In this document: positions 16,316 through 43,438 of the stretch, in pieces
How the letters are laid out: every line of letters starts with the position of its first letter
Position numbering within the stretch: the stretch's first letter is position 1
From: Pyrinomonadaceae bacterium
GTDB lineage: Bacteria > Acidobacteriota > Blastocatellia > Pyrinomonadales > Pyrinomonadaceae
DNA length: 64,000 nucleotides
Direction: 5' to 3'
Assembly: GCA_021228405.1 (NCBI GenBank)
Contig: JAJQRF010000001.1
Span: forward strand, 62,001-126,000
Notes under the pieces: model-generated
What the model was told of the DNA's origin: nothing
The model's input: the letters and a program-made list of their open reading frames with translations, nothing else
The model's database searches: none
Translations under genes and position numbers: made by a program

Positions 16316-16324
16316 GGAGAGAAA

Positions 16325-16639
16325 AACCTTTAAATCATAGAATTCAACTCTTAAATTTTAGGGAAAAACTTTTGAATTATAGAATTTAACTTTTGAATGA
16401 TAGAGAAAAATAGTTTTTCGCTAAGTTTTAACTCTTGAATTTTGGAGAAAAACTCTTGCAGCTTAGGGAAAAACTTATTTTCTCTATCATTTAACTTCTA
16501 AAACCTAGCGAAAAACTCTTGCGGTTTGGAGAAAAACTTATTTTCTCTACCGAAAAACTATTTCCGCTTATATTTTAGAGATACATTTTCGGCTTTTAAT
16601 CTCTCAAATTCGGCGAAAAATCGTTATAATTCGTTAAGT
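16325..16639. repeat. 21-bp-period degenerate tandem array 1 (about 15 units)
   Basis: Units start every 21 bases from 16325 (16346, 16367, ... 16598, 16619). A typical unit is AACTCTTGAATTTTGGAGAAA-like; nearly every unit begins AA and many end GAAA or TTT. Examples begin at 16430, 16451, 16472, 16493 and 16514. Units differ at many places but the phase is kept through the whole stretch. It fills the spacer between the acid phosphatase and the S9 peptidase genes. No coding sense is evident. Confidence 0.8.
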
Positions 16640-20989: not shown

Positions 20990-21048
20990 AAAGCCGTTTT
21001 CGAGCCTTCAATATTTGAAAAAAACCATCAATTAATCTCTTTAAACCT
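20990..21048. other. Spacer before array 2
   Basis: Short AT-rich stretch between the stop of the 20378 gene and the first 21-bp unit. No gene or site recognised. Confidence 0.4.
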
Positions 21049-21240
21049 GCAAGTAATTAAAAGAAATTCGCAGGTTTTTCCTTAAAAGTTGCAAGTTTTC
21101 CTTAATTACTTGCAACTTTTCCTTAATGACCTGCAAGTTTGAAAGCAATAGTTGCAGGTTTTCCTTAATTACCTGCAACTCTGAAAGGAATAGTTGCAGG
21201 TTTTCTTTAATTACTTGCAAGTTTTTCTTAATTATCCGCA
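21049..21240. repeat. 21-bp-period palindromic tandem array 2 (about 9 units)
   Basis: Units start with GCA at 21049, 21070, 21091, 21112, 21133, 21154, 21175, 21196 and 21217, with GCA again at 21238. Each junction carries a near-palindrome of the form A[GC][CT]TGCA[AG][GC]T; several neighbours are exact reverse complements (AGTTGCAAGT then ACTTGCAACT; AGTTGCAGGT then ACCTGCAACT), so adjacent junctions can pair. The apparent LQVIKENLQLL-rich frame on minus is a by-product of the 21-base period. Confidence 0.9.
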
Positions 21241-21293
21241 CGCTAAAAAAGTAAATTTCAGGATTTTTTGTAAAAACGGACGCATTAAAAACA

Positions 21294-21328
21294 AAGAAAG
21301 CGCGATGTTTGATCGTTCGCGCCTTCTT
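21294..21328. terminator. Intrinsic terminator between convergent genes
   Basis: AAGAAAGCGCGA (21294-21305) pairs 11 of 12 with TCGCGCCTTCTT (21317-21328), followed by TATTTTTTTC on plus and by an A/T-rich tail on minus. It lies between array 2 and the stop of the 21356 gene. Confidence 0.65.
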
Positions 21329-21355
21329 TATTTTTTTCTTTACTTAATTGTTTCT

Positions 21356-43162: not shown

Positions 43163-43209
43163 CGACGTTAAATCCGAATTTCACGCCGGAATATTCGGAT
43201 TTAACGTCG
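43163..43209 (+). repeat. 17-bp perfect inverted repeat after CHAT 2
   Basis: CGACGTTAAATCCGAAT (43163-43179) and ATTCGGATTTAACGTCG (43193-43209) with a 13-base loop. It lies 30 bases after the CHAT 2 stop and its right arm runs into the first unit of array 3. Without a T-run it is not a standard terminator. Confidence 0.85.
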
Positions 43210-43372
43210 TCAGATTCCGATCTGACCCGGTTAGATTCCAATTCAACGTCGTCAGATTCCGATCTGACCCGGTTAGATTCCGATTCAACGTCGTCAAATT
43301 CCGATCTGACCCGGTTAGATTCCGATTTAACATCGTCAGATTCTGATTTGACCTGGTTAGATTCCGATTTAA
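43205..43372. repeat. 21/42-bp-period tandem array 3 (8 half-units)
   Basis: A 42-base unit starts at 43205, 43247, 43289 and 43331 and splits into two related 21-base halves, one with CGTCGTCAGATTCCGAT and one with CCCGGTTAGATTCCGAT. GATTCCGAT sits at the centre of nearly every half-unit and is the tip of a hairpin: at 43209-43226 GTCAGAT-TCCG-ATCTGAC pairs perfectly. Later copies have compensating changes in part (GGTTAGAT...ATTTAACC). It fills the spacer between CHAT 2 and the anti-sigma-like gene. Confidence 0.9.
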
Positions 43373-43438
43373 CCGGGTGCGATCTGCTTATTTTTTAGTT
43401 TTTGGGAGATTATTTTGAGTTTTATCCCGATTTTTCGC

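Follow-up and report, generated by a model that had tools for sequence, protein, structure and literature searches.

Intergenic repeats of bacteria are normally defined by a common sequence. Plasmid iterons are short direct repeats at a spacing of about two helical turns, heptameric short tandem repeats (STRR-like) have been described in cyanobacteria, and REP elements are known to avoid divergent spacers. REP/BIME elements, found in E. coli and other bacteria, resemble the arrays considered here in short palindromic units, regular spacing and an intergenic position, and perhaps in the alternating orientation of units, and REPs form one sequence family genome-wide (PMC2817692, PMC3733652). The tandem repeats of Borgs are comparable in that many locus-specific arrays occur in one lineage, with intergenic units of 20–21 nt and some predicted hairpins; they are near-perfect, lie in ORFs in about half of the cases, vary in unit length and are A-rich (PMC9879509). 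Our literature search found no account of a class such as ours in Acidobacteriota, the nearest descriptions being those of REP/BIME and the Borg repeats. The class reported here is defined instead by its unit length of two turns and by its position in gene 3' flanks.

The focal array belongs to a soil bacterium of the Pyrinomonadaceae (Acidobacteriota) with a 5.7-Mb genome, and lies in an analysed stretch of 64,000 nucleotides (the window) within a 1.19-Mb contig, C4. It occupies positions 21045..21243 (unstranded) in the spacer between two convergent genes, a plus-strand gene for a carboxypeptidase regulatory-like domain protein (PF13620; 20372..20989, the start being that of our in-house caller and 20312 in the ORF list) and a minus-strand gene for a DUF6941 protein (PF22091; 21356..21790). 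Ten junction boxes of 10 bp each, with the consensus A-SY-TGCA-RS-T, stand at 21045, 21066 and onward to 21234 in exact 21-bp steps, separated by 11-bp linkers. The first-pass annotation, made from the letters of the window, had described nine units in strict 21-base phase, and this is borne out both by the exact phasing of the ten boxes and by the lag-21 match, which over the best 160 bp reaches 0.60, whereas 2,000 dinucleotide shuffles of the spacer average 0.33 and never exceed 0.45. Its statement that TGCA centres each junction needs a small correction: the T is missing in the boxes at 21066 (ATTCGCAGGT) and 21234 (ATCCGCACGC); the full TGCA is present in the other eight. TRF reports a period of 21 (7.6 copies) and one of 42 (2.7 copies, 86% matches). 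Mean column identity is 74%, and the invariant positions of the nine-unit alignment are the core G, C and A together with one further A. The only Rfam match in the window was a tRNA, a plasmid collection gave no match to the array, and a family-wide DNA search with the array gave matches confined to its own genome.

Measured from box centre to box centre, units start with CA and end with TG or CG, so that their ends are inverted. The linkers are of two kinds, one TTTCCTTAATT-like and one TTGAAAGSAAT-like, and the latter may be read as a reverse-oriented unit: the linkers TTGAAAGCAAT and CTGAAAGGAAT are similar to the reverse complement of TTTCCTTAATT. Reversal is plain in the first unit, and +++-+-+ is the orientation string that best fits the seven units examined. 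Allowing for orientation improves the fit by 4 matches against a null mean of 0.4; since the null maximum is 5, mixed orientation in the focal array is likely, not proven. Inverted ends, together with the probable presence of both orientations, would therefore enable adjacent boxes to pair. The annotation had observed that neighbouring junctions are often exact reverse complements with matched changes, and both features exceed chance, with exact reverse-complement neighbours in 3/9 adjacent box pairs (permutation P = 0.006) and matching outer arms (left of box j against right of box j+1) in 6/9 steps (permutation P = 0.003), in tests that were post hoc, having been chosen with the data already in view.

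Many similar arrays surround this one. On contig C4 (1.19 Mb), TRF lists 53 arrays of 20–21-bp period; setting aside the three that lie within longer ORFs, 50 are non-coding. Extrapolated by count, this rate would give roughly 240 in the genome. Two further members lie in the window, both unstranded and with 21/42-bp periods, namely an array of different sequence in a convergent spacer (43193..43374) and one in a tandem spacer (16318..16410). The lag profile of the class peaks at 21, 42, 63, 84, 105 and 126 bp, identical 8-mers recur at 20–21 bp and almost never at 22, and the 21-bp arrays have no sub-period of 7 or 14 bp and sit in mid-spacer. Arrays of one or three turns were not seen on the contig, only those of two. 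Sequences are locus-specific across the class, the motif search yielded nothing common to it beyond A/T-rich words, and C-rich, rut-like composition was not found in the arrays. As for gene context, 31 of the 50 arrays lie in tandem, 17 in convergent and 2 in divergent spacers, where spacer length predicts 31.5, 6.2 and 12.3 (P ~1e-4 each way), counts that were based on our in-house hexamer gene caller after removal of short ORFs covering arrays. The divergent deficit persists with a promoter clearance of up to 150 bp.

The pairing proposed for the focal array is visible in RNA folding, where the spacer is far more stable than its shuffles on each strand (z -5.8 on the plus strand and z -8.4 on the minus strand). 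On the plus strand, successive pairs of boxes form four consecutive predicted 42-nt hairpins of -9.6 to -14.6 kcal/mol, spaced at 42 bp and each followed by a run of 4–5 T: a terminator-like hairpin of boxes 1–2 at 21044..21076 with a TTTTT tail, one of boxes 3–4 at 21087..21117 with a 13-bp stem in the fold, one of boxes 5–6 at 21129..21159, and one of boxes 7–8 at 21171..21201, the last three with TTTT tails. A strong, ordinary bidirectional terminator hairpin (21291..21331; unstranded) separates the array from the minus-strand gene. The array might have been selected as a terminator of several hairpins, or as a boundary of the transcription unit, with box pairs held complementary so that RNA from the plus gene runs into four U-tailed hairpins in succession and read-through into the convergent gene is stopped. 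We hold this to be rather unlikely. It would account for the strand bias of the terminator-like sites (a G+C stem, then a T run, in a custom scan allowing longer loops), of which the array holds four in the sense direction of the plus gene and one on the other strand, and for the outer-arm complementarity; across the class, moreover, arrays hold 32 such sites where column-permuted arrays predict 6.5, a fivefold excess, and the enrichment in convergent and depletion in divergent spacers fits as well. On the other hand, the focal spacer already has its normal bidirectional terminator, and relatives do with such a hairpin alone. The T-tails are short, and a stricter, simple scan with shorter loops gave zero sites. 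Only 16/50 arrays contain any terminator-like site, those in tandem spacers divide into 9 sense and 5 antisense, and hairpin potential is absent from about half of the arrays.

The last of these counts comes from a comparison with column-permuted copies, in which about half of the arrays form better hairpins and the other half do not, in a bimodal distribution. Significant dyad symmetry is found in only 7/53 unit consensuses; universal palindromes across the class were accordingly rejected. General compensatory covariation was likewise rejected as a class rule: in those arrays of the contig that are most palindromic, covariation beyond the column profile is absent (z ~0, with best-axis selection allowed for). 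These results bear on the earlier suggestion that covariation between neighbouring junctions reflects selection for pairing. The pairing itself is real in the folds and hairpins; the inference of selection is weaker, because units present in both orientations would by themselves yield reverse-complement neighbours, because the arrays of the class that are most palindromic lack covariation beyond the column profile, because about half of the class lacks any hairpin potential, and because a protein-bound TGCA motif is not common to the class. Selection for RNA pairing may act on the focal array, but it does not characterise the class in general. In 11/50 arrays, unit orientation is mixed to an extent beyond the null.

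Sequence is shared within the genome on a small scale, in families of 2–3 loci in unlinked spacers. The arrays at 694469 and 1053013 share 81% over 285 bp, the similarity setting in within ~40 bp of the array edge, and related arrays at unlinked loci have no common flanks beyond ~40 bp. Words of the focal array recur at one other locus of the genome only, C19:255571-255781, where they stand in both orientations and include a perfect 24-bp inverted pair in the sequence. The clearest case of mixed orientation was noted in two related arrays of contig C4 (855255-855434 and 914625-914837), built of the half-words AATCT and ACGCT with 7-bp linkers that occur both ways round. Elsewhere on the contig, the array at 826334-826538 (CATTGAATCTTTCGTTGCGAG, 89% matches) is near-perfect, with a short N stretch inside, and would seem far younger than the rest.

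Substitutions that separate two paralogous arrays tend not to fall in the conserved columns (6.7% vs 28%, P below 2e-4), a column-specific pattern that would point to constraint were conversion between units not an alternative source of it; for that reason the result is not proof of selection. It has a place in a second explanation, in which a protein of nucleoid, gyrase-like or boundary function binds the array DNA, requiring a motif on the same helix face at every second turn and recognising the locus-specific motifs loosely. Unit spacing of 20–21 bp and hardly ever 22, conserved core columns beside variable linkers, and a position between transcription units would all agree with such binding, as would the avoidance of conserved columns, were it not that inter-unit conversion could mimic it. 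Against it, the class-wide motif search gave no common motif beyond A/T-rich words, nor one of the TGCA kind that the first-pass annotation had proposed as a possible protein-bound site; modelled curvature does not exceed that of ordinary spacers; and arrays of two turns occur with no one-turn or three-turn counterparts. We regard such a protein as unlikely. DNA curvature as such was rejected as an explanation by the same modelling, which used a wedge model.

As 21 bp equal seven codons, the arrays could in principle be genes, or remnants of genes, for small heptad-repeat (coiled-coil) proteins, of LQVIKEN type on the minus strand of the focal array. A 66-aa open frame does cross the focal array on that strand, and longer ORFs that look real enclose three arrays of the contig. 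The focal ORF has no Pfam match, the frame is broken by 20-bp units in several arrays, and two paralogous arrays show no synonymous excess between them in any frame. Fully open frames number 34 against 22 under column permutation, an excess that is gone with the dinucleotide null (167 open frames in unit consensuses vs 174 in shuffles). Coding heptads were therefore rejected and appear highly improbable as an account of the class. Separately, the 21-bp repeats at 565253-565554 of contig C4 and at L222 500-796 lie inside ORFs and have similar units (TGTTTTTC...CATCTG...CAGT); their reverse strand is heptad-like, and a genuine coding role is thus possible for some 21-bp arrays.

The relatives sampled are Pyrinomonadaceae or Acidobacteria MAGs by name. 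They have the same convergent gene pair, and in most of the spacers read there is a terminator hairpin, accompanied in some by heptamer repeats; a 21-bp array was not found in the orthologous spacers. Among 43 relatives in which the two genes are close together, no lag-21 match came near the 0.46 of the window, in a scan for which spacer lengths are rough and some stops unresolved. In SZAS-13, three arrays of the window could be placed on syntenic spacers and all three (3/3) are absent there, the array-free spacers being shorter (268, 247 and 95 bp vs 573, 366 and 305). Because these spacers are both array-free and shorter, the comparison indicates that arrays are gained or lost on the lineage and are not ancestral spacer fixtures. 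In the 320 kb read from SZAS-13 (L104), arrays of similar period number about nine outside ORFs, in mixed context, and 3/9 of these non-coding arrays were called divergent, so that the context rule may fail outside the source genome. Other sampled relatives have few or no 20–21-bp arrays, some of the few being heptamer multiples or coding repeats. The class is thus common in the source genome, present in SZAS-13, and rare or absent in the other sampled relatives.

Taken together, these observations are best explained, with a probability of about one half, by a lineage-specific, BIME-like or minisatellite-like intergenic tandem repeat that has a unit of two helical turns and a sequence varying between loci, and resides mostly in gene 3' flanks. 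Arrays would arise and spread as units via slippage or template switching, and inverted unit ends, in the arrays that have them, would permit copying in either orientation without loss of phase. They would be tolerated mainly in 3' flanks, like REP/BIME elements. In the focal case, pairing of the inverted units would have produced the row of four T-tailed hairpins in the 3' untranslated part of the plus gene. These may act as redundant terminators of weak effect, or as barriers at the 3' end, upstream of a bidirectional terminator of conserved type. Such a local terminator effect is probably a by-product or an exaptation, not the reason for which the class exists, and selection on pairing or protein binding is possible. 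Several findings speak against a dynamic repeat of this kind. Ordinary slippage does not explain a two-turn period over arbitrary sequence; the decay of unit similarity is slight (from 0.60 at 21 bp to 0.55 at 126 bp), unlike that of continuous slippage; and the avoidance of conserved columns by substitutions, the divergent arrays of SZAS-13 and the focal orientation gain lying within the null maximum count on the same side. One might instead think of a private two-helical-turn motif at most array-carrying transcription-unit boundaries, kept up by a process that measures length and is indifferent to sequence, such that phase and not sequence is conserved; we consider this doubtful.

If unit length and position, with a sequence that differs at nearly every locus, are indeed what the arrays share, length or helical phase would be measured independently of sequence during the formation or upkeep of arrays. 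This can be tested by strain comparison, and it offers a handle, independent of sequence, on the evolution of transcription-unit boundaries.

Set beside the known systems, the class resembles plasmid iterons in its repeat spacing of about two turns and differs from them in that no replication gene adjoins the focal array, many arrays occur per chromosome, and sequence is locus-specific. STRR-like heptamers, which occur in the source genome and its relatives, are likewise intergenic tandem repeats, sometimes in forward and reverse-complement runs that give hairpins; their period is 7 and they often lie <10 bp from gene ends, whereas the 21-bp arrays lie in mid-spacer. Among heptamer arrays on contig C4 and in L007, L018, L026, L028 and L104 of relatives, 22/52 distances were <=10 bp after a stop and 26/46 were <=10 bp before the next start. 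In some spacers, reverse-complement heptamers occupy the opposite end, which would let the spacer fold as a single hairpin over its whole length. Compared with the near-perfect Borg repeats of varied unit length, the units of our class are diverged (74% identity in the focal array), almost all intergenic and of a single period.

The likeness to REP/BIME extends to gene context, the arrays being extragenic and scarce in divergent spacers (2/50 vs ~12 expected). The genome has nine Y1_Tnp (RAYT-type) matches, and most 21-bp arrays are not near one. At one of the nine, in L223, palindromic 22–25-bp tandem repeats built on TCGCC...GGCGA (1140-1363 and 1917-2240) lie on both sides of the Y1_Tnp (RAYT-type) gene and might be REP-like substrates of its own. 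Our class includes about as many non-palindromic as palindromic arrays, and nearly every locus has its own sequence; because it lacks the shared sequence by which REPs are recognised, the class is not REP/BIME, although it may behave like one.
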